A stretch of DNA of 49,389 nt from Candidatus Nanopelagicales bacterium (GTDB taxonomy: Bacteria; Actinomycetota; Actinomycetes; S36-B12; CAIYMF01). The number at the start of each line of letters is the position of its first letter. Position 1 is the first letter of the stretch. Shown here piece after piece: positions 3,933-22,579 of the stretch. The notes below the pieces were generated by a model. It saw nothing but the letters and a program-made list of their open reading frames with translations. It searched no databases and was not told the DNA's origin. The DNA is taken from positions 1-49,389 of the forward strand of contig JADGOZ010000046.1 in assembly GCA_017882705.1 (NCBI GenBank), written 5' to 3'. Both the position numbers and the translations under genes were made by a program.

Positions 3933-5276
3933 CTACGACAGGGAGGTCGGGTCGGTCGCCACCGCGTCGACGAGCTGCTGCACGAGCGACTCCCGGACCC
4001 GGCGGTAGGCGGCGTCGTCGGAGAACTCACCGTTCTCGTACTTCAGGTCGAGCTGCGCGAGCTGCTCGGCCAGCACCTCCGCCTGGCTGCGCGGCGTGGC
4101 GGTCGGCGACGTGGCGGTCTTCGCGGGCTTCGGAGCCGTGGCCTTCGCCGGCTTCGGGGCTGCGACGGGCTTGGCCGGTGCCGCCGCCTTGGCCACCTTC
4201 GCGCCCTTCGGCACCGCCGTCGGGTCCGCCGTGGACGCGGAACGGCGACGGCGCAGGAGCACCACGACGACCGCGGCGACGACCACGACGAGAAGGCCGA
4301 TCAGCCCGAAGAGCCACCACGGCGTCGAGGAGCTCTCGGCCGCGGCGGCCGACAGGGTCACCGTGATCGTGTCGCCGGCCTTGACCGCACCGGACTTGTA
4401 GACGTCGTAGGTCACGTTCTTGTCCGTGGTCGTGCCGCTGCTGGTCAGCTGCGGCGAGGACACCGCCGTCCCCTTCGGGGCGAGCAGGGTGATGCTGTCC
4501 GCGGGGAACTGGGCGAGGAACGCGAGGCTCGCGGGTCGCGGCGACTCGTAGCGCAGGGTGCCGCTGCTGCCGCCCGGGTTGAGCGGGCGGGTGTGGGCCC
4601 AGGCGCCGTTCGTGACGGCGCTGCAGCAGACGGCGAACTGGCCGAGGTACTGGAAGTTCGTGGCCCCGGTCGCGATGGAGAGCAGCGCTGCCGCCTTGGC
4701 ACCCGGGGTCGCGTCGGCCACCGGAGTCGTGCCGACGAAGGCGGTCGCGCCGGAGTTCGTGTAGGAGAGGTCCTGCTCGACCGCGACCTTGTCGCCGGTG
4801 ACGTCGAGCCACACGATCCACGACGAGGTCTTGATCTTCGCCGGGGAGTCCGTGGGGGCGAAGACGGGGAGCTTGAGCGTCAGTCCCTGCCCCGCGGGGA
4901 CGGTGACGAGGTCGGTCGAGAACGTGGCCCCCTTGTAGGGCGCCGTGATGGTGTAGTTCCAGTCGCCGCCGGCGAGGTCGCGGAAGGTGAAGGTCCCGTC
5001 GGCCTTGGTCACCGCGGTGCGGGTGATCGCGTCGCCGGACGTCGGGACACCGCTCAAGGTCACCGTCACGCCGGCCTCGGCCGTGGCCGGGCCGGGAACC
5101 GCGATGCGTCCGCTGATCTCCGCGGTGCCGCTGCCGGCGTCGGCGCTGCGCGCCGCTGTCGGGGTGAGAGCCGACGCGGGTGCCGTTGCCAGCAGCGCTC
5201 CGGAGAGAGTGACGGCCAGCATCGCCCCGGAGGTCCCGAGGAACCGTCGTACGCCGAACCCGTGCACCCACCCCAT
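3933..5276 (-). CDS. Membrane protein with carboxypeptidase-regulatory-like domain, last gene of the ccm operon
   Basis: A 447-aa exported, membrane-anchored protein. Residues 1-36 form a signal peptide ending ASA; residues about 50-118 are a carboxypeptidase-regulatory-like (transthyretin-like) beta sandwich (SGRIAVPGP to NYTITAPYKG). A second beta-rich extracytoplasmic region follows with an adjacent cysteine pair (C217, C218). One membrane helix lies at about 319-341, then a Lys/Ala/Pro-rich cytoplasmic linker and a C-terminal helical segment (AEQLAQLDLKYENGEFSD...) resembling the short helical pieces of CcmI/SHOCT-type proteins. ATG 5276 is chosen because AGGGAG precedes it; a longer frame start at 5333 lacks one and overlaps the preceding gene. 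Position directly after ccmF and the zinc-ribbon gene suggests a role in apocytochrome handling or haem delivery (inference). Confidence 0.75.
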   Translation of the reverse strand: MGWVHGFGVRRFLGTSGAMLAVTLSGALLATAPASALTPTAARSADAGSGTAEISGRIAVPGPATAEAGVTVTLSGVPTSGDAITRTAVTKADGTFTFRDLAGGDWNYTITAPYKGATFSTDLVTVPAGQGLTLKLPVFAPTDSPAKIKTSSWIVWLDVTGDKVAVEQDLSYTNSGATAFVGTTPVADATPGAKAAALLSIATGATNFQYLGQFAVCCSAVTNGAWAHTRPLNPGGSSGTLRYESPRPASLAFLAQFPADSITLLAPKGTAVSSPQLTSSGTTTDKNVTYDVYKSGAVKAGDTITVTLSAAAAESSSTPWWLFGLIGLLVVVVAAVVVVLLRRRRSASTADPTAVPKGAKVAKAAAPAKPVAAPKPAKATAPKPAKTATSPTATPRSQAEVLAEQLAQLDLKYENGEFSDDAAYRRVRESLVQQLVDAVATDPTSLS

Positions 5277-5289
5277 GGGGAACTCCCTG

Positions 5290-5727
5290 CTATGCGGTGA
5301 CCTTCGTGCCGCACGAGCGGCAGAAGGCGTCACCGTCCTCGAGCACAGCCTCGCAGGCCGCGCAGTGCTTGGCCTTGAGCGCCGCCTTGCGCGCCGCGAT
5401 GGCGGCTTCCACGGAGGCTCGGACGTCGTCCGACGACGTACCCATGACCGGCGGGGAGGCCGGAGCGGCGACCTTCTCGGCCACGGGCGCGGGGACCGGC
5501 TCGTCGTCGGGGGTGTCGGTGGTGGTCGTCGCCGCAGACGCGGCGGCTGTCGTCGCCGCCGGTCGGGCGACCCGCTCGACCCTGGCGACGGACCGGGCCT
5601 TCGCGGCCGGGTCGCTGAGGTCGACGGGACCGTCGAGCGTCGGCTCGGTGGCGTAGAGGAACGGGCGCAGGACGAGGGCGAGCATCGCGAGCAGCAGGAC
5701 GAAGGCTGCGATCAGGTAGACGTTCAT
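5290..5727 (-). CDS. Membrane-anchored zinc-ribbon protein of the ccm operon (CcmI-like position)
   Basis: A 145-aa protein: an N-terminal membrane helix (residues 3-22), a long Ala/Thr/Pro-rich linker, a short amphipathic helix (ASVEAAIAARKAALKAK) and a C-terminal zinc ribbon with paired cysteines C122/C125 and C136/C139. ATG 5727 has GGAGG upstream and starts one base after the ccmF stop, so it is translationally coupled to ccmF. It sits where CcmI/CcmH genes sit in other Ccm operons, but it lacks their domains. It may recruit or stabilise assembly factors; this is inference. Confidence 0.75.
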   Translation of the reverse strand: MNVYLIAAFVLLLAMLALVLRPFLYATEPTLDGPVDLSDPAAKARSVARVERVARPAATTAAASAATTTTDTPDDEPVPAPVAEKVAAPASPPVMGTSSDDVRASVEAAIAARKAALKAKHCAACEAVLEDGDAFCRSCGTKVTA

Positions 5728-5728
5728 G

Positions 5729-7732
5729 TCAGGCCTCCACCAGCTCCTGGTCGTGCTCGGGCTCGGGCTCGTCCTCGTCCTCGTCCTCGTGCAGCGTCTC
5801 GAGCGCCATCCGCGGAGCGCCGATGCGCTTCGGGAGGACGAACAGGAGGCCACCGATCGCCATGACCAGGCCGCCCATCCAGATCCAGAGGACCGCCGGG
5901 TTCGTGAAGACGTTGAGCGTGACCTCCTTGGTGCCGGTGTCGGCGGCCTCGAGGACGACGTAGATGTCCTCGGTCGGCCGGACATGGATGCCGACGTTCG
6001 CGTGCGTCTCACCCGTGGAGGTGAACTGGTCCTGCTCGGTGCTGATGACCGCCATCGTGCCGCCGTCGCGCCCGATGAGGGCGACCCGGGCGACGAACGC
6101 GGTGCTCTCCGCGAGCTGCGCGGCGTTGAGGTCGAGCACCTTCACGGTCTGGCCGGCCACGGTCGCCGTGTCGCCGACCTTGAGGGTCACGCGACCCTCC
6201 TGCTGGAGGCTGGCGTTGAGCGTCACGGCGGCGAGCATCACGATGAGGCCGACGTGCGCGACGTACGGGCCCGAGGCACGCAGCGCCGCGAGAACCCGGC
6301 TGTCGGCGGAGCTCGACCACGCCGAGCCGACCCGCTGCCAGAGCTTGCGCGCCACGCTCATGAGCGCGAGGAGCGAGATGGTGAGGACCAGGGCGACGCC
6401 CGGGTTCTGCCAGCTGCTCAGCGCGTAGAGACCGACGAAGGTCACGGCCGCGACGACGCCGCGCACGACGGCCTCGCGGCGCTGGTTCGCGACGGTCTGC
6501 CCCGGGAGGAACGGGGACACCGCGAAGATCGCCAGGACCGCGACGCCGAGCGGCGTGCAGACGGCGCGGAAGAACTCCGGGGTCACCGAGATCTCCTGGT
6601 TGCGCAGCACCCGCAGGAACAGCGGGTACATCGTGCCCCAGAGGACGGCGACGGTGAGGGCGATCATGAGGACCGCGAGGGCGCGCTGGCCCACCCAGCC
6701 GTGACCCTGCGCGTCGGACTTCGGGGCCCGCAGCATCGGCAGGCGCCACACGAGAAGGCCGCCCGACACGAGCAGGATGATGAAGATCGCGGCACCCATG
6801 ATCGGGCCGAGGCCGGACTCGCCGAAGGCGTGCACGGAGGAGATGACGCCGGAGCGGGTCAGGAACGTGCCGAACAGGCACAGGATGAACGTCGTGATCA
6901 CCATGACGAAGCCGAGCACGCGCAGGCGTCCGGTCTTCCAGTGCGTGAGCGTCGTGTGCAGGAGCGCGGTGCCGGTGAGCCAGGGGAGCAGGCTCGCGTT
7001 CTCGACCGGGTCCCAGCCCCAGTAGCCGCCCCAGCCGAGCTCGGCGTAGGCCCAGCGCGCGCCGAGGATGATGCCGGCGGTGAGCGCGATCCAGGAGTAG
7101 GCGTTCCACCGCGTCGCGACCTTGACCCACGGGCCCTTCGACGGGCCGGCGACCAGCGCCGAGATCGTCAGCGCGAACGGCACGGTGTAGAGGATGTAGC
7201 CGCCGTAGAGCGCGAGCGGGTGGATGATCTGCAGCGGGTTCTGCAGCAGCGGGTTGAGGCCCTGGCCGTCGGCCACCGGTGCCGGGAGCAGCTTGAAGGG
7301 GCTCTCGACGAAGAGGACGAGACCGACGAAGAGGCCGGTCACGACGGCGAACGTGGTGACGGCGTAGGGCGCGATCTCCCAGTTCTTGCGACGGTTCTGC
7401 ACCACGATGACCGCGGCGAGGATCGCGGAGAACCAGGCCCAGAGGAGCAGCGAGCCGCCCTGGCCGGCCCACATCGCGGCGATCCGGTAGGGGATCGCGA
7501 GCGACTTGCTGGTGTAGTCGGCGACGTAGGCGACGGAGAAGTCGCCGGTCATGAGCAGGGTGAGCAGCGAGCCGGCGGCGACGCAGACCGCGAGGGTCAT
7601 CGCGTAGACGGCCCCCTCCGCACTGCGCACGAAGTCGTCGCGCTTGCGCGTCGCGCCGATGATCGACGCGACCACCGCCCAGAGGGCCGCGGCCAGCGCC
7701 AGGGCGATGGCGTAGCTGCCGAGCTCAGACAT
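5729..7732 (-). CDS. ccmF: Cytochrome c haem lyase CcmF
   Basis: A 667-aa polytopic membrane protein of the CcmF/NrfE family, the subunit that ligates haem b to apocytochrome CXXCH cysteines on the outer face of the membrane. Diagnostic motifs: WAGQGGSLLLW (88-98), IIHPLALYGGY (169-179, conserved haem-ligand histidine) and the WWD domain WGGYWGWDPVENASLLPW (234-251). Length is normal. ATG 7732 has only a weak ribosome site (GGTGAC), suggesting coupling to ccmD. Third-last gene of the operon that begins with ccmE. Confidence 0.95.
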   Translation of the reverse strand: MSELGSYAIALALAAALWAVVASIIGATRKRDDFVRSAEGAVYAMTLAVCVAAGSLLTLLMTGDFSVAYVADYTSKSLAIPYRIAAMWAGQGGSLLLWAWFSAILAAVIVVQNRRKNWEIAPYAVTTFAVVTGLFVGLVLFVESPFKLLPAPVADGQGLNPLLQNPLQIIHPLALYGGYILYTVPFALTISALVAGPSKGPWVKVATRWNAYSWIALTAGIILGARWAYAELGWGGYWGWDPVENASLLPWLTGTALLHTTLTHWKTGRLRVLGFVMVITTFILCLFGTFLTRSGVISSVHAFGESGLGPIMGAAIFIILLVSGGLLVWRLPMLRAPKSDAQGHGWVGQRALAVLMIALTVAVLWGTMYPLFLRVLRNQEISVTPEFFRAVCTPLGVAVLAIFAVSPFLPGQTVANQRREAVVRGVVAAVTFVGLYALSSWQNPGVALVLTISLLALMSVARKLWQRVGSAWSSSADSRVLAALRASGPYVAHVGLIVMLAAVTLNASLQQEGRVTLKVGDTATVAGQTVKVLDLNAAQLAESTAFVARVALIGRDGGTMAVISTEQDQFTSTGETHANVGIHVRPTEDIYVVLEAADTGTKEVTLNVFTNPAVLWIWMGGLVMAIGGLLFVLPKRIGAPRMALETLHEDEDEDEPEPEHDQELVEA

Positions 7733-7768
7733 GGTGTGTCACCCGTTCTTGCTAGTTGGCGCTGAGGT

Positions 7769-7906
7769 CTAGTTCTGGAGGTCGGTCTGCGAGGCGATGG
7801 CTGCCTGCAGGTTACGGCGTCGCACGTGCAAGGAGACCGTGTATCCGATGTAGAGGACGCCCGCGAGGCCGTAGCCGACGAACAGGTTGATGTTGTTGCT
7901 GATCAT
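7769..7906 (-). CDS. ccmD: Small membrane protein CcmD
   Basis: A 45-aa protein, reading MISNNINLFVGYGLAGVLYI and then GYTVSLHVRRR. One membrane helix followed by an arginine cluster is the CcmD layout. CcmD tethers CcmC/CcmE to the CcmAB transporter and helps release holo-CcmE. Its ATG overlaps the ccmC stop as ATGA, and GAGGAGAT lies upstream. Position between ccmC and ccmF supports the call. Confidence 0.85.
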   Translation of the reverse strand: MISNNINLFVGYGLAGVLYIGYTVSLHVRRRNLQAAIASQTDLQN

Positions 7907-8637
7907 GACTCGATCTCCTCAAGCTGGGTCGCGAGGCGGGCCACGTCGAGACGCAGGCGCATCAGGTAGACGTAGACGAGGCTGAAGGTGGTGAGGCCGA
8001 CCATGAGGGCGATGACCATCGCGCCGGGCATGTGCGGGCCGTCGCCGGTGATGATGACCTGCTGCGGGTGCAGAGTGCGCCACCAGTTCACCGACAGGTA
8101 GATGATCGGGACGTCGATGAAGGCGATGATGCCGATCACGGCGGAGAACCGGGCGCGGCGCGCGGGGTCGGGCACGTAGGCGCGGACCGCGAGGTAGCCG
8201 AGGTACATCAGCCACAGGACGAGGAACGACGTGAGGCGCGGCTCCCAGGTCCAGTAGACGCCCCAGATCGCGTGGCCCCACATCATCCCGGTGGCCAGCA
8301 CGACGGTGGTGAACAGCGTCCCGATCTCGGCCGAGGAGGCGGCGATCGTGTCCCACTTCTCCTTGCGGCTGGAGAGGTAGGCGATGCTCGACAGGAACGT
8401 CACGCCGAAGCCCACGAAGCAGATCCAGGCCGAGGGCACGTGGATGTAGAAGATGCGCTGCATCGCGCCCTGCAGCTCGTCCTCAGGGGCGAAGACGAAT
8501 GCGAAGTACGCGAAGACGGCGAGCATCACGAGCACCACGATCGCCAGCGGCGACACGCGGGTCTTGTGCGCGGCGGCCGTGCCGTCGGTGACGACAGGTG
8601 CGCCGGTTCGTGCAGCGGGCTTGCTCTCGATGCTCAT
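7903..8637 (-). CDS. ccmC: Haem handling protein CcmC
   Basis: A 244-aa, six-helix membrane protein. It presents haem to CcmE through a WWD domain (WGHAIWGVYWTWEPRL, 120-135) flanked by two haem-ligating histidines, H66 in YIHVPSAW and H190 in WWRTLHPQ. ATG 8637 overlaps the ccmAB stop (ATGA) and has GGAGG eight bases upstream. The N-terminal 28 residues before the first helix are longer than in proteobacterial CcmC and look disordered. Confidence 0.95.
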   Translation of the reverse strand: MSIESKPAARTGAPVVTDGTAAAHKTRVSPLAIVVLVMLAVFAYFAFVFAPEDELQGAMQRIFYIHVPSAWICFVGFGVTFLSSIAYLSSRKEKWDTIAASSAEIGTLFTTVVLATGMMWGHAIWGVYWTWEPRLTSFLVLWLMYLGYLAVRAYVPDPARRARFSAVIGIIAFIDVPIIYLSVNWWRTLHPQQVIITGDGPHMPGAMVIALMVGLTTFSLVYVYLMRLRLDVARLATQLEEIES

Positions 8638-10175
8638 GAATCCTCCACTACGAACGAGAACGTCGCGATCGCGGCGAGTCCGACCACGAGGTCGAAGCCG
8701 GCGAGAAGTGCGTACCACTGGAACATGTTCACGCTGCCCGCGGTGTCTCCACCGAGGGCCTGCCGCGTCGTCTCGACGGCCGCGATCATGAGGGGGATGA
8801 CGACCGGCATGACGATCAGCGGCAGCAGGGACTCGCCCATGCGGCTGCCGACGGCGATGCCGGAGAACAGGGTGGCGACGATCGTGATGCCGATCGTGGC
8901 CAGGACGACGGCGAGGATGAGACCGCCGACGTCGAGCGAGCCCTGGGACTCGCCGGTCATGAGCACCAGGAACATCGGGACGATGAAGACCTCGATGAGG
9001 CCCATCGTGACGAGCCCGGCGGCCAGCTTGCCGAGGAAGATCGACTCGCGCGGGGCCGGCGAGAGGAGCAGGCCCTCGATCGCGCGGTCCTGGGACTCGC
9101 GGGCCATGCTGCGCCCGACGCCGAGGAGCACCGCGAACAGCAGGCTGATCCAGAGGATTCCGGTCGCCATGCTCCCGGTGTTGCCCGACTGCACCGTCGT
9201 GAAGCTCGCGGTGATGAGGACCGTGACGGCGAACAGGCCCGAGGACATGAGCACGTCGCGGCTGCGCAGCTCGACACGCATGTCTTTCGCGGTGATCATC
9301 CCGGCGGAGCGGAAGCGGCCCGGCGGCACGACGAGGGCGGGGCGCGCGGTGAGCGCGGCCAGGTGCGGCTCGTCGAGCGAGGGGCGCTCGGGGAGGTCGG
9401 GGCGCGAGATGGGGCCGCGGCCGCCGTGTCCGGCGCGCGAGACATGGTCGGAGACGACGCCGACGAGGACGTCCTCGCGCTCGTCGACCTCGAGGTCGGC
9501 CAGCGCCTCGATCGGCTCGTCGACGGCGATGCCGCCCTCGCCGATCACGATGAGGCGGGTGGGTCCCTCGAGGGCCCGCGACATCTCGTGGACGGTCATG
9601 ATGATCGTGCGGCCCTCGGCGTGCAGCGCGGTGAGCAGCTGCACGAGGCGTGCGGACGACTCCTCGTCGAGGCCGGTGAACGGCTCGTCGAGGAGCAGGA
9701 CGTCGGGACCGTGCATGAGCGCGCGGGCGAGGGTCAGGCGCTGCTTGTTGCCGCGGGAGAGGACGCCGGCGGGGCGGTCCAGGACCCGGCGCAGGTCGAG
9801 CACGTCGGCGAGCTCCTCGATGCGCGCCTCGGGGTCGGCGACGCCGAACAGCCGGGCGTGGAACATCAGGTTCTGCCGGCCCGTGAGGTCGCCGTAGAGC
9901 AGACCGTCGTGGGAGACGAAGCCGAGCATCCGGCGCAGTCCCGGGCCCGCCTTGCGGAGGTCGACGCCGGCCAGGGTGACGGCCCCGGTGGTCGGCGTCG
10001 CCAGTCCGGCGACGAGGCGGAGGAGGGTGGTCTTGCCCGCGCCGTTCGCGCCCATCAGGGCGACGAAGGAACCCGCCGGGATCTCGAGGTCGACGTGGCG
10101 CAGCACCTTGTGCCGGCCGAACGTCTTGCCGACGTCGACCAGGCTGAGGTCACTGGGACGAGGCACCGTTACCAC
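8634..10175 (-). CDS. ccmAB: CcmA-CcmB fusion: haem-maturation ABC transporter in one chain
   Basis: One open frame of 513 aa joins an ABC ATPase to an ABC membrane subunit. Residues about 10-205 are CcmA: Walker A GANGAGKT (42-49), signature LSRGNKQR (139-146), Walker B VLLLDEPF (159-166). After a Pro/Arg-rich linker of about 70 residues, residues about 280-513 are CcmB with about six membrane helices. CcmAB uses ATP to release holo-CcmE from CcmC. In nearly all known Ccm operons these are two genes; no stop or frameshift separates them here. An internal ATG at MITAKDMRVE could allow separate CcmB, but I see no good ribosome site for it. The start overlaps the end of ccmE by 26 bases; GTG 10175 and GTG 10166 are both possible. 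Confidence 0.9.
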   Translation of the reverse strand: MVTVPRPSDLSLVDVGKTFGRHKVLRHVDLEIPAGSFVALMGANGAGKTTLLRLVAGLATPTTGAVTLAGVDLRKAGPGLRRMLGFVSHDGLLYGDLTGRQNLMFHARLFGVADPEARIEELADVLDLRRVLDRPAGVLSRGNKQRLTLARALMHGPDVLLLDEPFTGLDEESSARLVQLLTALHAEGRTIIMTVHEMSRALEGPTRLIVIGEGGIAVDEPIEALADLEVDEREDVLVGVVSDHVSRAGHGGRGPISRPDLPERPSLDEPHLAALTARPALVVPPGRFRSAGMITAKDMRVELRSRDVLMSSGLFAVTVLITASFTTVQSGNTGSMATGILWISLLFAVLLGVGRSMARESQDRAIEGLLLSPAPRESIFLGKLAAGLVTMGLIEVFIVPMFLVLMTGESQGSLDVGGLILAVVLATIGITIVATLFSGIAVGSRMGESLLPLIVMPVVIPLMIAAVETTRQALGGDTAGSVNMFQWYALLAGFDLVVGLAAIATFSFVVEDS

Positions 10176-10614
10176 TGCTCCCGGCCTGGAACTTCGACGG
10201 GCACTTCGCCAGCAGGGTCGTCGCCGCGAAGATGCCGTCGGTGCCGAGCTGTCCCTCGGCGACCATCTGCGTGCCGGGCTGCGACGCGGTGGTGAGCGCG
10301 GTGGTCGCGGAGCCCTGGTAGACGACGTTGACCCGAGTGGTCCCGTCGGTGAGCGTGAACTTCGTGGTGCCCGGCGTCGTCTGGACGCTGTTGGCGACCA
10401 GGGTGCCGGCGAGGCGCACGTGCTGCCCGGGGGCGGCGGCCACCTCGGTCGGCGTCTTGTAGAAGACGACCGACTTGCCCATCATCGACGTCGCCGCGAA
10501 GGCGATGGCCGCGACGAGGACGACGCCGACGACGATCCACAGCCAGGTCCGGCTCTTGCGCTCGAGCGCAACGGGCGCCTCGTCGACCTGCGGGGTCGGG
10601 GTGAGCTGAGCCAT
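10150..10614 (-). CDS. ccmE: Haem chaperone CcmE, cysteine-type
   Basis: A 154-aa protein with one N-terminal membrane helix (24-41) and the OB-fold beta barrel of CcmE. CcmE carries haem covalently from CcmC to CcmF. In classical System I the haem is held by a histidine in an LLAKHDENY-type motif; here the equivalent reads LLAKCPSKF with C138 in place of the histidine and F142 in place of the tyrosine. A cysteine-type CcmE (CXXXY) is known from Desulfovibrio and archaea; CXXXF is a further variant. First gene of the ccm operon. ATG 10614 has AGGAGG upstream, and the shared promoter module lies at 10681-10765. Confidence 0.93.
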   Translation of the reverse strand: MAQLTPTPQVDEAPVALERKSRTWLWIVVGVVLVAAIAFAATSMMGKSVVFYKTPTEVAAAPGQHVRLAGTLVANSVQTTPGTTKFTLTDGTTRVNVVYQGSATTALTTASQPGTQMVAEGQLGTDGIFAATTLLAKCPSKFQAGSSGNGASSQ

Positions 10615-10680
10615 GAGGTCCTCCTGCAGTGCGGTCGTTCTCCGTCAGGTCAAATCCTCGCGGTCCGCAAGCCCGTCAAC

Positions 10681-10765
10681 CATCCGTCGGAGGGCACGTT
10701 TGCGGTAGAGAACAGGGGCTTCCAGGGTGTGCCGCATGCCGATCGGTATATGCCCCTCTGTACCC
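10681..10765 (-). promoter_or_regulatory. Shared promoter module, copy A (upstream of ccmE)
   Basis: Read on the minus strand this stretch opens with GGGTACA, then CATATACC thirteen bases in, and 56 bases from the start TCTACC, followed by ACGTGCC and CGACGGATG. All blocks recur at identical spacing in copy B (14141-14225), about two thirds identical by hand count. GGGTACA/TATACC form an imperfect inverted repeat of the TACC type favoured by NarL/LuxR response regulators. A TTGAC follows directly downstream and could be a -35 element. Confidence 0.65.
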
Positions 10766-10801
10766 AGCAGAGGACAGCCTGGGCTCACGGTCCGGTCGTG
10801 C

Positions 10802-10838: not shown

Positions 10839-10855
10839 AGGTCGCGCGGGCGGGG

Positions 10856-11512
10856 TCAGCCTGCGGCGACAGCCTTCTGGATCATCGAGTCGAGGGTGAC
10901 CGGGTCGAACGCGGAGATGAACTTCTCGACGATCTTGCCCTTGCGATCGAGGAAGAAGGTCTCGGGCAGGCCCGTGACGTTGTACTGGGCACCGATGGTC
11001 TGGTCGGGGTCCTGCACGCTCTGGTAGCCGAGACCGTAGGTCTGGTAGTAGGTGTGGGCGCCGGCCGTCGTGTCGTGCGAGTCGACGCCGACGAACACGA
11101 CGCCCTTGGCGCGCCACTTCTTCTCGATGTCGGAGACGATCTGCGCCTCCGCCTTGCACGTGCTGCACCACGAGGCCCAGAAGTTCACGACGACGGTCTT
11201 GCCGCGCAGGCTCGACAGCGTCAGGGACGCGCCGTTGCCGTCGACCAGGGCCCCGGTGAACTCAGGGGCCATCTGGCCGACGGGGTCGGCGCTGAGCTGC
11301 TGTCCGACGACGGACGCCGGCGCCGACTGGTAGCGGGGTGCGAGCGCGAACCCGAACAGCACGACGACGGCCAGGACGACCACGCCGAGGCCGATGAGGG
11401 CGCCCTTGCGACTGGTCGGGACGGCCTCCTCGGCCGGCTCGAGGGTCTCCACGGGCTCCTGGACATCCATGGTCGTCATGGTCTGGCCTTCCTGGTCGAG
11501 GTCGTCGTTCAT
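10856..11512 (-). CDS. resA: ResA/TlpA-family membrane-anchored thioredoxin
   Basis: A 218-aa protein with a cytoplasmic N-terminus, one membrane helix (38-57) and an extracytoplasmic thioredoxin domain with WCSTC (C116, C119) and the cis-proline loop GLPETFFLD. ResA/CcmG proteins reduce the CXXCH disulfide of apocytochromes before haem attachment, which fits its place after a decahaem cytochrome gene. Its first ATG overlaps the cytochrome stop (ATGA); a second in-frame ATG at 11479 has a better AGGAAGG site, so either could be used. Confidence 0.9.
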   Translation of the reverse strand: MNDDLDQEGQTMTTMDVQEPVETLEPAEEAVPTSRKGALIGLGVVVLAVVVLFGFALAPRYQSAPASVVGQQLSADPVGQMAPEFTGALVDGNGASLTLSSLRGKTVVVNFWASWCSTCKAEAQIVSDIEKKWRAKGVVFVGVDSHDTTAGAHTYYQTYGLGYQSVQDPDQTIGAQYNVTGLPETFFLDRKGKIVEKFISAFDPVTLDSMIQKAVAAG

Positions 11513-14067: not shown

Positions 14068-14140
14068 GGTGGCCCCCAGCTCCTTCTGCTTCTGACGTCA
14101 TCCGTCACTAGTGATTCTCGATCCGGCGCCGGCGCCAATC

Positions 14141-14225
14141 CATCCGTCGCTCGGCACGTATGAGGTAGATCCCCCCGGCCGGGGATCTGTACCGGGAGCC
14201 GATGGGTACATGCCGGCCTGTACCC
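14141..14225 (-). promoter_or_regulatory. Shared promoter module, copy B (upstream of TPR-decahaem operon)
   Basis: On the minus strand: GGGTACA, CATGTACCC, then 56 bases from the start TCTACC, ACGTGCC and CGACGGATG, all at the same spacing as copy A. GGGTACA-N8-TGTACCC (14204-14225) is a perfect 7-bp inverted repeat, the clearest candidate operator in the window. A second perfect inverted repeat, AGATCCCC-N6-GGGGATCT (14167-14188), lies inside and is not shared with copy A. Confidence 0.68.
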
Positions 14226-14257
14226 ACCGAACGACCTCGCCGCTCCTGCAGGTCCGA

Positions 14258-15634: not shown

Positions 15635-15689
15635 TGCGCGCTCCGTCGGTGGTGGGTGGCGGGTCCGTGGACCCGGGTGTGCGGACCGA

Positions 15690-15730
15690 GGGCCTCGTGA
15701 CAGCTGGAGGATCTGGCTGCCACGAGGCCC
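15690..15730 (-). terminator. Intercistronic hairpin between the two secreted cytochrome genes
   Basis: A 15-bp stem with one mismatch (arms 15690-15704 and 15716-15730) and an 11-base loop, just after the hexahaem stop (15752) and 56 bases before the next start. It could be a partial terminator lowering expression of the downstream cytochrome, or a 3' stabiliser of the upstream message. No T-run follows. Confidence 0.6.
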
Positions 15731-15751
15731 CGGTTCATGCTGTCGAGCTGC

Positions 15752-17212
15752 TTACAGGTTGTGGCACATGTTGCAGGTACCGCGGCTGTCGACCCGGAGG
15801 AGGAAGGAGTCGCCGGCCGTGCCGGTGATCTCGGTCCCGACCGCGCTGGACAAGCCACCCATGGCCGCGTTCGTGCCGTGCGCGACGTGGCACTGAATAC
15901 AGTTCGGGCTGTACTCCTTGCCGTTCTGCGAACGGTGCTTGAACTTGAACGTGGCGTCGCCCGAGTTGACGTTCCACGCGCCGCTCCCCGCCATGACGCG
16001 GGTGTGACAGGTGGAGCACCACTGCGAGATGTTCGCGATGAACGCCGTCGGCGCGATCGCGACGGACGTGACGACACCCGTCGAGCTGGTGGCGGTCGTC
16101 ACAGGGACGTTGGCACCGGTGTAGTTGTGATCGTCCACGGCCCAGTAGTTCGTGGTCGTGTAGATCCGCTGGAGGTCACCCACTCCGCCGGCGACAGGGA
16201 GAGCGTCCGCGATGCCGGAGAGCTTTCCTCCGGTCGTCGAGGTACCTGCCGTCGTGTTCGCCACAGTGAACGTGGTGGGGGACGTGACCGAGATAACCGC
16301 AGCCGTGACGTTCAGCCCAGCCGGTGTAAGCCCGGTGATGGTCACCTTCTGACCAGTCGTGAGGCCGTGCAGGTTGAGCGTCGTGTACGTGACGTTCACG
16401 CCGCCCCCAACCGCACTGGCGATCGCCAGCGGGTCGGCATACCCGACGACACCGCCCGTGACCGACGCGAAGTTGATGCTCTTCGCGCTCACGGTGAAGT
16501 GGGTCGAGTCGGTCACGGTGCCGACGGTGGCCCCGATAATGGCGTCAGCCGCACCCGAGCCGACGAACGAGACCGGATCGGTGACCTTGAAGGTGTTCGC
16601 TGCCGCAGTGACGACGGCGTACGTGTACGTCGTGCCACTGACGGCTGTCTGGGTCACCGAGGTGACCCCGACGGTTGCCGGCAGGACAAGCGCAGCGCCG
16701 TCGGTCGGAACCGGACGGAGGATGCGGTAGTTGCCGTTGCCGTGCGGATCGTGGCAGGACCCGCACTGCAGGGTGATGTTGGTTCCAGCACCGGTCGCGC
16801 CACCGCCCCAGGCCCACCCCGCCACGCCCACGTCGTGCTTGGACGTCACGGCCTGGCTGGGACCTACGGCGATCGACAGCTTGTTGATGCCGCTGGTGGT
16901 GTTGATGGTGGCTTTCATGAACCCGCCGCCACGAAGCGCACCGGCGCCCGTCGCGGTGCTGACACCGTCGACGACGTCCGTAGACGCCCCGAGGCCGGTG
17001 TGACAGGTCTGACACAGCAGCGTCTGGTCCTGCTTCAGCAGGTACGACGCTTGTGCGGTGTGAGCCCGGTGGCAACCTGCGCACCGGTCCACTGTGGTGT
17101 TGCCGGCCGACGCAACGTGCGGGCCGTTGTCGGCGAACGCCGGCGTAGCTCCCATCACTCCGAGTCCCAGAATGACCGCGCTCCCCACTCCGAGGAAGGC
17201 TAGTCGCCTCAC
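15752..17212 (-). CDS. Secreted hexahaem cytochrome c with tandem beta-repeat insertion
   Basis: A 486-aa exported protein; the signal peptide ends ATPAFA (residue 27). CXXCH motifs start at 44, 67, 150, 399, 438 and 480. Between motifs 3 and 4, residues about 180-338 form a Thr/Val/Gly-rich beta insertion of two related units (about 185-261 and 264-337), each ending in a TxFTV strand and a TGG...ADP/ADA turn, like repeats found in surface and adhesive proteins. The C-terminus ends two residues after the last haem motif. GTG 17212 is chosen because GGAGG precedes it by 8 bases. Third gene of the TPR-NHL-cytochrome operon, likely an extracellular electron carrier. Confidence 0.9.
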   Translation of the reverse strand: MRRLAFLGVGSAVILGLGVMGATPAFADNGPHVASAGNTTVDRCAGCHRAHTAQASYLLKQDQTLLCQTCHTGLGASTDVVDGVSTATGAGALRGGGFMKATINTTSGINKLSIAVGPSQAVTSKHDVGVAGWAWGGGATGAGTNITLQCGSCHDPHGNGNYRILRPVPTDGAALVLPATVGVTSVTQTAVSGTTYTYAVVTAAANTFKVTDPVSFVGSGAADAIIGATVGTVTDSTHFTVSAKSINFASVTGGVVGYADPLAIASAVGGGVNVTYTTLNLHGLTTGQKVTITGLTPAGLNVTAAVISVTSPTTFTVANTTAGTSTTGGKLSGIADALPVAGGVGDLQRIYTTTNYWAVDDHNYTGANVPVTTATSSTGVVTSVAIAPTAFIANISQWCSTCHTRVMAGSGAWNVNSGDATFKFKHRSQNGKEYSPNCIQCHVAHGTNAAMGGLSSAVGTEITGTAGDSFLLRVDSRGTCNMCHNL

Positions 17213-17316
17213 CGTCGTCACCTCCTTCCATGTGATCTGGCGCGATGGCCAGTCGAATACTTCTGAAACCTGCAGAGAGCGATGGCTCGCTCCCGGCTCA
17301 CCCCTCCTCCCGCCGC

Positions 17317-18378
17317 TCAGCTCCACACCTGGACGCGGCCGTTCTCCCGGTCGGTGACATAGATGGTCGACCGGCTGTCGATGGCGATCCCGTTCGGATA
17401 CTCGAACTGACCGTCCGCGATCCCTTCGTCGCCGAAGGCGCCGACGTAGGAGACCTTGTTGGCCCCGTCGTTGCTCAGCGTGTACGCCTTGATCGTGTGG
17501 TTCACGGTGTCGACGACGTAGACGCGGTCGCCGCTGTCGGCAGCGACGCCTCGCGGGAGCCCCAGGTCGCCCGCGCCGATGCCCCGCTCGGCAGCCCCGA
17601 CGACGGTGCCGTCGGCGTTGAAGGCCAGCAGCCGCCCGTTGTTGCCATCGGACACGAACACGTGGCCTGCATTGTCGACCGCGACCCCGTTCGGGAAGGA
17701 CAGCTGGGTGCCGGTGGGCACGATGGTGCGGGTGACCTTGTCGAACTGGTCGAGGACCAGCACGCGATGGACCTTCCCGCCGACCTCGGTGACCAGGAGG
17801 TCACCCTGCGGCGTGAAGGCGACCCCGAGCGGGACCCAGGTGCCGGTGAGGCCCGCCGGCTTCACCGTGCGCAGGTAGTTGCCCTCGCCGTCATAGACGT
17901 AGACGGCCTTGGCGAGCTCGTCGGTGACGACGACATCACCGTTCGTGGGGTCGACCGCCACGTAGGCGGGCAGGTGGCCGGTGGCCACGACGCCCTTGGG
18001 GTCCGCCGGAACGGCCAGAGTCTTGAGCAGGTTGCCGTCGTGGTCGAACATGAGCGTCGTGCGCTTCGCGCCGCTCTGCGTGACGTAGATGCGGCTGCCG
18101 TCGGCCGACACGGCCACGCCGATGGGCTTGTCGACGCCGTAGATCGAGCTCTGGTAGGTCGGCATCGTGTTGCTGCTCAGGATCGGCAGCGAGCTCAGCG
18201 GCTTGTGCGTGATGAGGTACCACGCGAGCAGGGACGCGACCAGCAGGAGCAGCGCGAGGATGACCCCGAGCCAGATGAGCAGCTTCTTGCGCTTGTTGCC
18301 CTCCTCCGGCGTCGGAGCGGGGTCAACGGGACCGTCCAGGACGGCCAGGCCGCCGGATCCACCGTCGATGGTGCTCAT
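17317..18378 (-). CDS. Membrane-anchored NHL-repeat beta-propeller protein
   Basis: A 353-aa protein: a short cytoplasmic N-terminus, one membrane helix (33-55) and an extracytoplasmic six-bladed propeller built from NHL-type repeats (for example PNGVAVDNAGHVFVSDGNNGRLLAF, described here in part; LPRGVAADSGDRVYVVD; YPNGIAIDSRSTIYVTD). It starts one base after the stop of the upstream TPR gene. NHL proteins recur in multihaem cytochrome loci of other bacteria, probably as binding scaffolds; enzymatic activity cannot be excluded. Confidence 0.88.
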   Translation of the reverse strand: MSTIDGGSGGLAVLDGPVDPAPTPEEGNKRKKLLIWLGVILALLLLVASLLAWYLITHKPLSSLPILSSNTMPTYQSSIYGVDKPIGVAVSADGSRIYVTQSGAKRTTLMFDHDGNLLKTLAVPADPKGVVATGHLPAYVAVDPTNGDVVVTDELAKAVYVYDGEGNYLRTVKPAGLTGTWVPLGVAFTPQGDLLVTEVGGKVHRVLVLDQFDKVTRTIVPTGTQLSFPNGVAVDNAGHVFVSDGNNGRLLAFNADGTVVGAAERGIGAGDLGLPRGVAADSGDRVYVVDTVNHTIKAYTLSNDGANKVSYVGAFGDEGIADGQFEYPNGIAIDSRSTIYVTDRENGRVQVWS

Positions 18379-18379
18379 G

Positions 18380-19411
18380 TCAGCTCGCCTTCCCCTGGGT
18401 GCCGGTGCTCTGCTTGGCGCCGTTGGACGCCGGATCGGGCTTCACGTTGAGGCGAGCGAGCGCCGTGAGCGCCGTGGCGTTGCCGGGCTCGGCCTTGAGG
18501 ACCTTCTGGTACCAGTCGGCGGCTGCGGTGCGGTCCGAGGTCGACTCGGCGACGAGGCCGAGGCCGAGCAGGGCGCTGACGGCTGCCGGGCCGGTGGTGA
18601 GCGCCTTGAGCCGGTTCGTCGCAGCGTCGGTCTTCTTGTCGCAGAAGTCGAGCATCGCGCCGGCATACTCGGCCATCTCGGCCTGCGAGAGCTTGCTGTA
18701 GGAGGCCGAGAGCGCTCCGTACGGCTCGCACCAGCCGGTCGGCACGAACATCAACGCCCGCTTCAGGCTCTCGACAGCGACCTTGTCCTGGCCCTTCTTG
18801 CTCTGCGCCGTGCCGAGGAGGAACCAGGCGTCCGCGTCGGAGTTGTCGATCCCGAGCGCCGCGGTGAGCTCCTTGATGGCTGCATCCGGGTCGTTCTGCT
18901 TCATCGCGATCGATCCGAGCCAGTAGTGCGCGGCCTCGGCCTCCGGGTCGACGTTGGCGAACTCGACCTTCTTGGTCGTCGACACGATCTTGGTGAACGC
19001 TGCCTTCGCTGCGTCGAGCTCGCCCTGGGCGATCTTCACGCTGCCCAGCCCCAGCAGTGCGGTGCTGTTGGTCGGCACGGCCTTGAGGATCTCGTTGAAC
19101 TGCGCGATCGCGTCGTCGTAGCGCTCGACGGTCTGGTAGGTCGCCGCGAGCTTGAGCCGGTTCTGCACGTTCTGCGGGTCCTTCTTGACCAGCTCCTCGG
19201 CGGAGGAGACCTGGCGCTCGGCCAGTGTCGGTGCGCCGCTGCCGCGCTGCCCCAGGAAGTAGAGCGTCCCGAACGCGACCAGGAGGAGGGCCAGCAGGGC
19301 CGCTCCCCACTTCACCAGTCGCGACAGCGTGCGCTCGGAGATCCCGTCCGGCTTCTGTGCCGGCTTCGTCTCTGGCTGCGTCAGCGTCGTCATGGGCTGT
19401 CTCGCCCCCAT
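18380..19411 (-). CDS. Membrane-anchored TPR protein, first gene of the NHL-cytochrome operon
   Basis: A 343-aa protein with one membrane helix (about 34-53) and an extracytoplasmic TPR solenoid from about residue 65 to 325 (NRLKLAATYQTVERYDDAIAQF, NSTALLGLGSVKIAQGELDAA, DADAWFLLGTAQSKKGQ and others). Two cysteines (in TGWCEPYG and LDFCDKK) may bond. By analogy with CcmI/NrfG it could escort apocytochromes. ATG 19411 or ATG 19393 are both possible starts and neither has a clear ribosome site. The shortened promoter module C lies just upstream. Confidence 0.82.
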   Translation of the reverse strand: MGARQPMTTLTQPETKPAQKPDGISERTLSRLVKWGAALLALLLVAFGTLYFLGQRGSGAPTLAERQVSSAEELVKKDPQNVQNRLKLAATYQTVERYDDAIAQFNEILKAVPTNSTALLGLGSVKIAQGELDAAKAAFTKIVSTTKKVEFANVDPEAEAAHYWLGSIAMKQNDPDAAIKELTAALGIDNSDADAWFLLGTAQSKKGQDKVAVESLKRALMFVPTGWCEPYGALSASYSKLSQAEMAEYAGAMLDFCDKKTDAATNRLKALTTGPAAVSALLGLGLVAESTSDRTAAADWYQKVLKAEPGNATALTALARLNVKPDPASNGAKQSTGTQGKAS

Positions 19412-19499
19412 CCTCGTCGTGGAGCCCCGGGCAGGTGCGCTCGGCTTCGCGTGGAGGTCTCCCTCCGCGTCGATCGTCGTCCCGGGGGGACCCGGTGCC

Positions 19500-19558
19500 C
19501 ATCCGTCGTGCGGTAGAGAGGGGATACATCTCTGTGCACGGGGTACATGTCCCGGTCG
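19500..19558 (-). promoter_or_regulatory. Shared promoter module, shortened copy C
   Basis: Minus strand: CATGTACCCC, GATGTATCCCC, then TCTCTACCGCA directly followed by CGACGGATGG. The same blocks as in A and B occur in the same order, but each of the two gaps is 11 bases shorter (32 rather than 43, and 18 rather than 29), about one helical turn. It sits upstream of the TPR-NHL-cytochrome operon. Confidence 0.55.
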
Positions 19559-19580
19559 GGCGCGGGATGTGACCTGGGTC

Positions 19581-19937
19581 TCAGGAGGCGTGCGGGTGCG
19601 CGACGCCGGAGCCGGCGACCGCGTGCACGATGGACTCGACGGCCGGGGCCTGACCCTGCTCGGGGATCGGCGTACCGGACATCACGGCGGCGCTCACGTC
19701 GATGAGGAGCGCGCCGGGGGCCTGGTAGGTGAGGTCGGCGAGATCGACGCCGGCCGCCCGCTCGAAGATGACCACCCGCGGCCTGGCCGAGAGGGCGGTG
19801 CTGACGGCAGCGTGGTCCAGCGCCGAGACGGCCTGTACCGGCACTCCGGTCTCCGCGGTGACGTAGGCCGCGATCCCCTCGCCGAGGATCGGGTGCACGT
19901 ACAGGAGCACGACGGGGTGGTTCTGGTCACCAGGCAC
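19581..19937 (-). CDS. Stand-alone receiver-like protein
   Basis: A 118-aa soluble protein, MPGDQNHPVVLLYVHPILGE onward, with the alternating beta/alpha layout of a CheY-like receiver. It lacks the acidic pair and phospho-acceptor aspartate in the usual places (VVIFERAAG where VLxD is expected), so it would be a pseudo-receiver. GTG 19937 has GGGAGGAG seven bases upstream. It lies between the two-component pair and the cytochrome operons, so it may tune the response regulator; this is inference and the fold call itself is moderate. Confidence 0.6.
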   Translation of the reverse strand: MPGDQNHPVVLLYVHPILGEGIAAYVTAETGVPVQAVSALDHAAVSTALSARPRVVIFERAAGVDLADLTYQAPGALLIDVSAAVMSGTPIPEQGQAPAVESIVHAVAGSGVAHPHAS

Positions 19938-20091
19938 CGGGCCGCTCCTCCCGTGGTGTCGACGTCTGTTGCGGACGGCTCCACGGTAGGACCCAGATCA
20001 CATGGCCTGATATCCGCGCAACGGCACAACTTTCGCCGGCGGAGGCGTATACCCACCCGTACCGAAGGGTCCGGGGGCGGTACGGCGGGGA

Positions 20092-20775
20092 TCAGGACGG
20101 GTCGGGCGAGTGCCCGAGCCCCTGACGGACGATGTACGACGCGGCCTGGATGCGGTTGTCGAGGTGCAGCTTCTCGAGAGCGTTGTGCACGTGGTTCTTC
20201 ACGGTGCCCTCGGTGATGGAGAGGCGTCGCCCGATCTGCTTGTTGCTCAAGCCTTCTGCGACGAGCTGCAGGATCTCCAGCTCGCGCGCGGTGATCGGCG
20301 GACCCGTCGTGGCCGACGGCGCCTCGACGGCCGTCCAGTTGCCGCTGCGCACCTCGGAGATGAGGAGTCCGGCGACCGCGGGGGAGATAGGGGTCTCCCC
20401 GCGCATGACGGACCGCAGCATGTCGTAGAGCTGGTCGGGGCGGAGGTCCTTGAGGAGGTAGCCGCTGGCGCCGTTGCGCACGGCGTCGAACAGGTGCTCC
20501 TCGGAGTCGGACACCGTGAGCATCACGATGCGGATCGCGGGCATCTGCTCGGTGAGCAGGCGGGTGGCCTCGACGCCGTCCATGACGGGCATCTCGACGT
20601 CCATCACGATGAGGTCCGGCTTGAGCTCGTGCGCCCGCTCGACCGCGATCAGCCCGTTCTCCGCCTCGCCGACGACGGTGAAGTCGTCCTGGGCGTTGAT
20701 GAGCGACGCGATCGCGGTGCGGAAGAGCGGCTGGTCGTCGACGAGCAGCACTCGCACCACGTCACCCTGCGGCAT
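20092..20775 (-). CDS. NarL/LuxR-type response regulator
   Basis: A 227-aa regulator. Receiver domain residues about 7-125 with acidic D13/D14, phospho-acceptor D59 (LIVMDVEMP), T in VMLTVSD and K in GYLLKDL; C-terminal LuxR helix-turn-helix (TARELEILQLVAEGLSNKQI, then TEGTVKNHVHNALEKL). ATG 20775 overlaps the end of the kinase gene and has GGAGG six bases upstream. NarL-type proteins bind TACC-like heptamers; such sequences lie in the promoters of the cytochrome operons, so it is the best candidate for their activator. Confidence 0.95.
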   Translation of the reverse strand: MPQGDVVRVLLVDDQPLFRTAIASLINAQDDFTVVGEAENGLIAVERAHELKPDLIVMDVEMPVMDGVEATRLLTEQMPAIRIVMLTVSDSEEHLFDAVRNGASGYLLKDLRPDQLYDMLRSVMRGETPISPAVAGLLISEVRSGNWTAVEAPSATTGPPITARELEILQLVAEGLSNKQIGRRLSITEGTVKNHVHNALEKLHLDNRIQAASYIVRQGLGHSPDPS

Positions 20776-22579
20776 GCATGGCCTCCGTGGTCGGACGGTT
20801 GTGGGACGGACTCGGGACAGCGGCGACCACCCGGGTGCCGCGACCCGGTTCCGAGTCGATCGTGAGGGTACCCCCGAGCAGCTCCATGCGTTCACGCATG
20901 GAGTGCAGGCCGAAGCCGTCGCGGGTGAACGGCTGAGTCGTGACGTCGAAGCCGTGACCGTCGTCCTCGATCACGAACGTGGTGAGGACCTCGTCGTCGC
21001 GCACCCGGACGACGGCCTTCGAGGCGCCGGAGTGCTTGCGCACGTTGGTGAGCGCCTCCTGCACCACCCGCAGGATCTGCACCTGGTAGCGCTGGGAGAG
21101 CACGACGTGCTCGGCGCCCTCGATGTCGAGGCTGGTGGGGATGCCACTCTGTCGCTCGTACTTCTCGAGGTAGGCCCGCAGGCTCTCGATGAGCGCGCGG
21201 TCGACCCGGCTGGACTCGCGGAGCCCGAGGATGTTCTCCCGCACGTCGCTGTAGGCCTCGCTGCTCAGGTCGGCGAGGTCGGCGATCTCGTCGTGGACCT
21301 CGGCCAGCGCGCGGACGCCCGGCTGGGCCTCGAGGGCGCGCAGCCGCAGGTGGGTGACGCCGAGGACCTGGGCCATTCCGTCGTGCATCTCGCGGGCGAT
21401 GCGCTCGCGCTCGGCGATGGTGGCCGACTGCCGGAGCTGCTCGAACAGCTGGGCGTTGACGATGGCGATCGACGCCAGCTCGGACAGGGTGGCGAGGAAC
21501 TGTCGGTCCCCCTCGCTGAAGCGGGGATCGCCGTGCCGGCCGAGCCACATGTCGCCGAACGAGCCCTCGGAACCGCGGATGGCCACCGTCATCGAGTGGC
21601 TGACGTGGCTGCTGGAGCGGACCGGGCAGACCAGCGAGCTGCCGTGCGCCTCCCGCATGTGCTCGGGGTCCGGCGTGATGCACATCGACCCGTCGCCGAG
21701 CGCCGTCGCCCCGGCGAGCTCGCCGTCGCTCTGAAGGGACCGCGCGGTGGCCACGTTGAGGGTCAGGACCGCCTCGTCGCTGGACAGCAGGGTGCGGGCG
21801 TGGTGCATGACCGCGGCCAGGGTGTCGGGGAGCGGGTTCTGGTTGGAGACCTGCAGCAGCGTGTCGTAGAACGCGTGCCCCTCGCGCATCCCGCGCTTGA
21901 GGTCCTCGAGCAGCTGGGCCGACTGGATGGCGCCCGCGAGCTGCTGGCCGATCGTCTCGAGGGTCTGATGGGCGACCGCGTCGCGAGGGTCGATGCGCGG
22001 CCCGAACCGCAGCCGCATCGTGCCGAGCATGCTCGCCCCGGTGGTCAGCGGGACCTCGATGGTGTCGCCGCTGGATCCCGTCGCGCCCATGCCCTCGAGG
22101 CTGGTGCGGCGTCGGATGATCTCCCGCTCGGAGGGCCATCGGCTGTCGCGCTTGGTGGTGACGATGCTCGCCTCGACGGCGCCGCTCGCGCTGATCACGC
22201 TGTCGAGCGCGGCGTCGAGCATCTCGTCGAGGTCCATCGTGCTGCGCACGGCGCTCGAGACGGCGTTGGCCGCGGCGAGCTCGCGGTTGCGGCGGCGCAG
22301 CTGGCGCTGGGTGCGGTCGACCAGCGTGAGGATCCACGTCGAGAAGACGATGATGCTGACGACCGCGACGACGACCAGCACGAGGCCGAGCCCGCGGGCG
22401 CGGCTGTCCTGGTCGACCGCGATCTGCCGGACGACCTCCGACGCGACGATGAACAGCACCGGGAGCGCGATCGTGAGCCAGCGCAGCCCGCGGAAGTCCG
22501 GGGTGTCCTTCGACGCCCGGTCCATGAGGCGCGCCGCCGTGGAGCGCTGCGCGTCGGCAGGGCGAGGACGGTCCTCCAC
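20762..22579 (-). CDS. GAF-domain sensor histidine kinase, NarX/DevS-like
   Basis: A 605-aa membrane kinase. Two helices (about 33-52 and 63-86) with only a short loop between, a coiled coil, two GAF-like sensor domains (about 115-245 and 255-385), a HisKA_3 dimerisation helix with phospho-acceptor H399 (AREMHDGMAQVLG) and an ATPase domain with N box (QEALTNVRKHS), DDGHGFD and GFGLHSMRERM. The small outside loop suggests sensing within the membrane or cytoplasm (quinone state, redox or gas), not an external ligand. GTG 22579 has GAGGAGG seven bases before it. Confidence 0.93.
   Translation of the reverse strand: MEDRPRPADAQRSTAARLMDRASKDTPDFRGLRWLTIALPVLFIVASEVVRQIAVDQDSRARGLGLVLVVVAVVSIIVFSTWILTLVDRTQRQLRRRNRELAAANAVSSAVRSTMDLDEMLDAALDSVISASGAVEASIVTTKRDSRWPSEREIIRRRTSLEGMGATGSSGDTIEVPLTTGASMLGTMRLRFGPRIDPRDAVAHQTLETIGQQLAGAIQSAQLLEDLKRGMREGHAFYDTLLQVSNQNPLPDTLAAVMHHARTLLSSDEAVLTLNVATARSLQSDGELAGATALGDGSMCITPDPEHMREAHGSSLVCPVRSSSHVSHSMTVAIRGSEGSFGDMWLGRHGDPRFSEGDRQFLATLSELASIAIVNAQLFEQLRQSATIAERERIAREMHDGMAQVLGVTHLRLRALEAQPGVRALAEVHDEIADLADLSSEAYSDVRENILGLRESSRVDRALIESLRAYLEKYERQSGIPTSLDIEGAEHVVLSQRYQVQILRVVQEALTNVRKHSGASKAVVRVRDDEVLTTFVIEDDGHGFDVTTQPFTRDGFGLHSMRERMELLGGTLTIDSEPGRGTRVVAAVPSPSHNRPTTEAMHAAG

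Follow-up and report, generated by a model that had tools for sequence, protein, structure and literature searches.

The closest described counterparts of the gene cluster reported here—which lies in a 49,389-nucleotide contig (JADGOZ010000046.1, assembly GCA_017882705.1; hereafter the window) of a Candidatus Nanopelagicales bacterium from the class Actinomycetes—are the six-haem cytochrome OmcS of Geobacter sulfurreducens (PDB 6ef8, 6nef), the quinol dehydrogenases ImcH, NrfH and CymA, and the extracellular electron transfer clusters of Dethiobacter alkaliphilus. The twelve haem ligands of OmcS are all histidines, one of which (at heme505) comes from a neighbouring molecule (PMC6584659), and OmcE likewise has a histidine from a neighbouring molecule (PMC9473688). 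Among actinobacteria, a Coriobacteriales bin was described in 2020 as only the second neutrophilic representative shown to encode multihaem cytochromes (PMC7399161), and two cultured Anaerosomatales with 17–18 multihaem cytochrome genes were described in 2022 (PMC9686372). Both belong to the class Coriobacteriia; for such a cluster in the class Actinomycetes, we found no account in the openly licensed literature (titles, beginnings of abstracts and passages).

The window is one whole contig of a 3.56-Mb, 194-contig assembly that is 90.9% complete, and the cluster genes all lie on the minus strand. Pfam matches comprised CcmF, CcmC, CcmA and CcmB (in one open reading frame, ORF), CcmE, a ResA-type thioredoxin, the NapC/NirT N-terminus, Paired_CXXCH in two proteins, NHL, two TPR proteins, a LuxR-type response regulator and a histidine kinase; the TPR, NHL, ResA, Ccm and two-component genes lay where the initial annotation had put them, on the one strand it had described. 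A motif scan of stop-to-stop frames of at least 60 amino acids on both strands found CXXCH in just three, encoding a decahaem (11509–13185, ten motifs), an octahaem (14258–15634, seven, plus the single CX3CH) and a six-haem cytochrome (15752–17212, six). The resulting total of 23 CXXCH and one CX3CH reproduced the earlier counts. The proteins contain 20, 16 and 12 cysteines, equal to two per haem motif (10, 7+1 and 6), and every cysteine is therefore accounted for. These motifs are far above chance (1000 residue shuffles of each protein gave means of 0.008–0.032 CXXCH and a maximum of 2), and the site numbers are identical in aligned homologues from the order (decahaem 10 in five rows, octahaem 7+1 in five, six-haem 6 in four). 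Within the assembly, matches to NapC (PF03264, E 0.001) and Paired_CXXCH (PF09699, E 0.01) were confined to this cluster. From its sequence we read the cluster, with moderate confidence, as a co-regulated gene set for a conduit of extracellular electron transfer, of which an OmcS-like filament may form part; a conduit ending outside the cell had already been proposed in the initial annotation and is still the best reading.

The exported six-haem cytochrome (minus strand; identified by motif count, transmembrane scan and profiles) probably starts at GTG 17212, behind GGAGGTG, rather than at 17326, and profile comparisons indicate that it is a distant member of the OmcS family. A profile of the four aligned rows from the order found OmcS in the PDB (E 0.0018) and, with up to three candidates scored per genome, matched 18 of the 396 genomes in our phylum sample, its own included. 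From the matching loci we read 32 ORFs with at least three CXXCH (the window's two included, some cut at an edge), 21 of them with exactly six. With a 23-row six-haem family profile, OmcS became the best PDB match at E 1.6e-18, with 6r2q (7.7e-9) and OmcE (2.8e-7) next; the alignment ran from profile positions 46–344 of 349 on OmcS residues 8–405 of 407 in one collinear stretch, with all six CXXCH in register. The source of that match, alignment A4, included two sequences (L083, L087) that were left out of alignments A5 and A6 as poor fits, and also out of a further profile built from 21 relatives outside the order. This last gave 169.7 bits (E 9e-49) for the window protein and 52.7 bits for OmcS, the best of 500 CXXCH-keeping shuffles reaching 25.5 and 19.8, respectively, while the order-only profile gave OmcS 25.9 bits and its shuffles at most 11.2.

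Beyond the haem motifs, six further histidine columns are conserved in 24 to 26 of the 26 aligned rows (OmcS being one row), and OmcS His16, 110, 147 and 335 fall in four of them. Five second-histidine positions of OmcS could be checked, of which four lie in family columns and one is 10 residues off; the N-terminal histidine lies outside the aligned stretch of the chain. Histidine at the His16 position is invariant (26/26 rows), but the motif CXXCHxxH is common. His16 is the ligand that OmcS supplies to the neighbouring subunit. Shared with OmcS, then, are six CXXCH that follow one another in the same order over almost the full chain, and conserved further histidines, one of them at the His16 position; the window protein differs in being distant in sequence, in an insert of about 200 residues (which the homologue in genome G026 is without) and in neighbours that include a NapC-type decahaem protein and haem-maturation genes. 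Filament formation by the six-haem protein is, on these alignments, a possibility. The actinobacterial Coriobacteriales bin also has a six-CXXCH OmcS homologue (28% identity) and comes from an order other than that of the window organism (PMC7399161). Elsewhere, OmcS-family six-haem genes occur in tandem (L127 8147–11459, minus strand; L128 10378–12634, plus strand), with three in G536 and two in G521.

The decahaem membrane cytochrome (11509–13185, minus strand) has one transmembrane helix in the scan, an NrfH-like part with three CXXCH and then seven further sites, the last four of which form two close pairs. It passes the PF03264 NapC/NirT cut-off (39.0 vs 24.1 bits), and NrfH is its best solved relative (E 3.6e-9 with the single sequence and 2.6e-10 with a profile, the next match being at 0.017). 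The CHxM of the first NrfH site is present, with Met85 invariant in 5/5 rows. In NrfH, this methionine ligates haem 1. Membership of NrfH itself was nevertheless rejected, TIGR03153 scoring 53.5 bits against an NCBIfam equivalog cut-off of 134.2. With ImcH, NrfH and CymA the protein shares a NapC/NirT-type part adjoining a transmembrane helix, and its ten sites fall within the range of 6–10 given for ImcH homologues; membership of ImcH was rejected as well, since the protein has one helix, not the three of ImcH, and its first site is CXXCH, with no CX3CH beside the helix as in ImcH (PMC6295460). The single actinobacterial ImcH homologue in that 2018 survey, from Intrasporangium calvum, also has one helix (PMC6295460). 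As far as these comparisons go, the decahaem cytochrome is a NapC-type protein of its own, neither NrfH nor ImcH, and plausibly a menaquinol dehydrogenase.

Between these two in the gene order lies the exported octahaem cytochrome (14258–15634, minus strand; motif count, Pfam, transmembrane scan and alignment). Its C-terminal CX3CH is probably a real eighth site, because it is kept in 4/4 aligned homologues. An octahaem profile found nothing convincing in the PDB, the best match being a local one to OmcE at E 0.0086.

Upstream of the six-haem gene stand the genes for an NHL beta-propeller with an N-terminal transmembrane helix (17317–18378, minus strand; Pfam, transmembrane scan, family alignment and profile search) and for TPR-A (18380–19411, minus strand; Pfam, transmembrane scan and family alignment), which has an N-terminal helix followed by TPR repeats and, by its charge pattern, would lie outside the cytoplasmic membrane. 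Related NHL and TPR genes accompany OmcS-family genes in four of five regions from outside the class (L128–L131); L127 is without them. When 28 chosen genomes were searched with an NHL profile, the best match lay no more than 6 kb from an OmcS-family gene in nine of the ten outside-order genomes that had contributed six-haem rows to the family alignment, a limit chosen after the distances had been seen; in the tenth (G868) it lay on another contig. Four of the ten (G521, G536, G552 and G823) had supplied rows to the NHL profile, and among the remaining six, one of which (G550) is a same-genus relative of G536, five had the match within 6 kb. At E 1e-25, the NHL profile had no match in three cluster-free genomes of the genus and four others of the class, and the decahaem relative in G559 had no NHL or TPR relative within 20 kb. 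We conclude from gene content that, outside the class, OmcS-family genes often lie near related NHL and TPR genes as a recurring module, which the initial annotation had overlooked together with the OmcS likeness itself.

Dethiobacter belongs to a phylum other than that of the window organism. Its extracellular electron transfer clusters also bring together multihaem cytochromes, a CymA-like protein and NHL and TPR genes, so that NHL and TPR genes near multihaem genes had already been reported there; its cytochromes, unlike the six-haem protein, were compared with OmhA/OcwA and MtoA (PMC10376724). In the Geobacter osc (omcS companion) operon, an OmcS-family gene similarly adjoins genes proposed to fold and secrete its product (PMC13194489, PMC12977616), but no cytochrome of the window reaches the size of the 26-haem GSU2495.

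Haem maturation in the window would follow System I (Ccm). The initial annotation had described a full Ccm set, and CcmA, B, C, E and F indeed all exceed their Pfam cut-offs (CcmA through the general ABC model and its fusion to CcmB); what is missing from the picture is a CXXC-type CcmH, none being seen in the cluster, with a membrane zinc-ribbon protein at its possible place (5290–5727; CcmI/CcmH-like by place only, zinc-ribbon matches below cut-off, transmembrane scan). On the minus strand, as throughout, follow a CcmF/NrfE haem lyase (5729–7732; Pfam), whose nearest NCBIfam family is NrfE (TIGR03145 and TIGR00353 below cut-off); a CcmD-like membrane peptide of 45 residues (7769–7906), named by size, place and look only, its start overlapping the ccmC stop; CcmC (7903–8718; Pfam, TIGR01191 below cut-off); the fused CcmA–CcmB haem ABC transporter (8634–10175; Pfam, whole-length relatives in G003 and G009); the haem chaperone CcmE (10150–10614; Pfam); and a ResA-type membrane thioredoxin (10856–11512; Pfam, NCBIfam ResA model below its cut-off). 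TPR-B (13195–14067) has one transmembrane helix inside the chain and TPR repeats behind it (Pfam, with TPR_CcmH_CycH below cut-off, and transmembrane scan); because it is fused to CcmF in G003, as one 944-residue ORF (L028 7259–10093, minus strand), the comparison suggests that it works in haem attachment. Genome G026 carries CcsA-, ResB- and CcdA-like genes, named by reading their translations, where the window has Ccm (L030 4977–8198, minus strand), and no Ccm relative was found there except weak CcmF and CcmC matches to the CcsA-like gene. Judged from these alignments, haem sites are fixed across the order and haem-maturation genes differ.

The calling of the cluster a regulon is favoured by a promoter-like element that it shares internally. 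The element stands upstream of TPR-B (14140–14225, core 14140–14159) and of ccmE (10680–10765, core 10680–10699), both on the minus strand and recognised by genome pattern search and comparison. Its core, ACGTGCCnnnCGACGGATGG, occurs exactly at these two places in the 3.56-Mb genome; with up to three mismatches there are 48 genome matches vs 21 for the reversed pattern, and two other sites with two mismatches are, by eye, without the neighbouring CTACC part. G009 retains both copies (one change in the core at TPR-B) together with an upstream block, GGGTACAnnnnGGCATRT, and in G001 the core carries two changes. The element also stands in diverged form ahead of TPR-A in the window (about 19499–19551, minus strand; sequence comparison) and ahead of both TPR-A and TPR-B in G026, and a -10-like stretch follows the element at a similar distance by eye. 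A riboswitch was considered and rejected: no Rfam match falls there, the four copies adopt different folded shapes, and their folding is not better than that of shuffled sequences (z 1.99, -0.58, -1.26 and -0.94). Control at the DNA level is the interpretation we prefer, and the shared element favours joint control of the cluster. In G003, the stretches read by eye contain no such element; the divergent region between ccmE and TPR-A (L028 ~12950–13010) has a different one, GGCAAARGTCC, twice by eye, perhaps another regulator's site.

A plausible regulator lies at the upstream end of the cluster, again on the minus strand. It comprises a histidine kinase (20762–22648, start codon uncertain) with two transmembrane helices and GAF, HisKA_3 and HATPase_c domains (Pfam, transmembrane scan, NCBIfam), whose best NCBIfam matches, MctS and NarQ, are far below cut-off, and a LuxR/NarL-type response regulator (20092–20895, the true start perhaps an ATG near 20775 by eye; Pfam, NCBIfam), which matches NCBIfam NarL at E 4.7e-61 yet below its cut-off. 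A homologue of the regulator (67% identical) stands beside the G026 cluster, as does one (41% identity) of the 118-residue protein (19581–19937), which is receiver-like by eye and had no Pfam match at 0.01; in G003, tblastn detected no relative of either kinase or regulator next to the cluster. The NarL-type regulator may be what binds the element copies.

The initial annotation had proposed looking for the same gene order in other actinomycetes. In G009 the order is kept to the contig end (TPR-A, NHL, six-haem, octahaem, TPR-B, decahaem, ResA, CcmE, CcmAB). G026 keeps TPR-A to decahaem along with the kinase, regulator and 118-residue genes, with the CcdA-, ResB- and CcsA-like genes between TPR-B and ResA; in G003 the set, Ccm included, is split into two divergent pieces, and the 5.4-kb contig of G001 carries octahaem, TPR-B and decahaem with ResA on the other strand. 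The decahaem gene was found in five of 166 genomes of the order (four of 40 genera), with no stop inside any of the five matches, and the cluster in two of 11 genomes of the genus, the window's own included each time. Because at most three candidates were scored per genome in the class and phylum samples, absences there are soft: the decahaem gene appeared in three of 394 class genomes, all of this order, and its profile matched 30 of 396 phylum genomes, of which, besides its own, G690, G559 and G797 alone matched over most of the protein and the other 26 only within the NapC part. No record in a plasmid collection matched the decahaem protein at E 1e-10. The decahaem relative of G690 (L065 1–4208) stands opposite a six-haem gene, behind which comes an NHL gene; that six-haem protein has no match to the OmcS-family profile and is nearer to the window octahaem. 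The relative in G797 (L064 9344–12383, minus strand) is next to a two-CXXCH frame, cytochrome-b-like by eye, with ResA and CcmF relatives near.

At the downstream end of the cluster, membership of two candidate genes is uncertain: that for the zinc-ribbon protein and that for a membrane protein at 3933–5333 (minus strand) with a CarboxypepD_reg-like domain below the Pfam cut-off. Neither has a homologue in six related stretches (tblastn 1e-4), at least two of whose contigs end before the place. The contig looks native, because its two flanking genes have best relatives within the genus that are 61–84% identical and the M20–gcs adjacency is seen again in the genus genomes G007, G008 and G011. 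From these two genes no clean insertion point could be defined as an empty site in 11 genus genomes; they lie on separate contigs in G007, G011 and G012, and in G012 BioY adjoins M20 in the other orientation. A few kb off the cluster, a cytochrome b6-like protein (27738–28430, minus strand; Pfam Cytochrom_B_N_2) overlaps by a few bases a 334-residue membrane protein without Pfam or NCBIfam match (26737–27741, minus strand), a possible second quinol-linked pair. A Guanidine-II riboswitch match (49066–49115, plus strand; 39.2 bits vs an Rfam gathering score of 32), by chance or real, falls inside the end of ORF 48182–49183, near the contig end.

In the conduit that we favour, the decahaem protein would oxidise menaquinol and hand electrons to the octahaem protein, which would pass them on to the six-haem protein; the latter, perhaps as a polymer, would span the wall or extend past it to meet an outside acceptor, for example Fe(III) oxide, humics or another, partner, cell. 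TPR-A and the NHL protein would aid the export or assembly of the six-haem protein, haem maturation would fall to TPR-B, ResA and Ccm, and the two-component pair would switch the promoters upon an anaerobic or acceptor signal. The parts of this scheme come from the sequence, and from them we infer path, direction and acceptor. To describe the cluster as complete and self-contained goes beyond what its sequence shows of export route, wall passage and acceptor.

Several observations weigh against this account. The four-row profile matched a multihaem chain of 6r2q (E 0.00017) better than OmcS; the chain is labelled cystathionine beta-synthase in its file, and the entry is an Mtr complex. OmcS Ala267 aligns with a family histidine, OmcS His257 lying 10 residues away. 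With two OmcS-family profiles the window octahaem reaches 46.9 and 40.1 bits, so that the likeness is partly a general feature of paired CXXCH. AlphaFold models were too poor to use (mean predicted local distance difference test 31.3 with four rows and 41.9 with 26 rows, the G026 protein first). Across all 17 phylum genomes that the six-haem profile matched, the NHL match lies within 6 kb in ten; of the seven omitted above, G843 has it about 3.5 kb away, five (G522, G637, G646, G724 and G763) on another contig, and G733 showed none in the profile search. The source is a metagenome-type assembly from an organism of which we know no culture. Of four related Geobacter hexahaem proteins, OmcS is the only one known to form wires, and genuine OmcS wires of other genera, the authors caution, cannot be singled out by profiles (PMC12977616); Fe(III) oxide reduction is reported to persist without OmcS, whose role is disputed (PMC11077965).

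What else might the cluster do? The NrfH-like part of the decahaem protein, regulators nearest to NarL and NarQ/MctS and a CcmF nearest to NrfE would all suit a cytochrome chain to a soluble acceptor (nitrite, a sulfur oxyanion or similar), with the octahaem protein as a new reductase and the six-haem protein as a shuttle. We think this unlikely: a search of the genome (E 0.01) turned up no nitrite reductase of the NrfA type, which upholds the statement in the initial annotation that no terminal reductase is present for that enzyme, other terminal reductases not having been searched genome-wide. The catalytic site of NrfA is of the CXXCK type. Such a site is excluded in the octahaem protein, all of whose cysteines lie in CXXCH or CX3CH, though other catalytic haem types are not, and the relative of the six-haem protein, OmcS, is an electron carrier and no known enzyme. 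No porin family, as would be expected beside the cytochromes of an outer-membrane porin–cytochrome conduit (MtrCAB/Pcc), was found among the scanned cluster genes.

Nothing in the sequence fixes the direction of flow, and NHL, TPR and CymA-like clusters are reported from a bacterium able to reduce Fe(III) as well as to oxidise Fe(II) (PMC10376724); electrons might run inward, taken from Fe(II) outside the cell, from reduced humics or from a partner cell, into the menaquinone pool. This strikes us as improbable, since up to 2018 ImcH relatives had come to light in Fe(III) reducers alone (PMC6295460), although the window decahaem is not filed as ImcH. We give very little credence to a decayed or contaminant island without function, for which the patchy occurrence (5/166 genomes of the order, 2/11 of the genus) might speak, since the decahaem matches lack internal stops, the haem sites are fixed in the order, the element is conserved and the contig appears native.

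Actinomycetes are generally regarded as monoderm. Going beyond the conduit itself, we tentatively suggest from these sequences that they might build OmcS-type filaments through a thick wall, with the TPR and NHL proteins as a conserved assembly pair independent of an outer membrane, and with quinol dehydrogenase and haem-maturation parts that can be exchanged. If the set works, an OmcS-type carrier would act without an outer membrane, which would help to separate the companion genes that serve assembly from those that serve outer-membrane passage, and actinomycetes would be counted among organisms for which electron exchange with minerals, humics or partners is a possibility.

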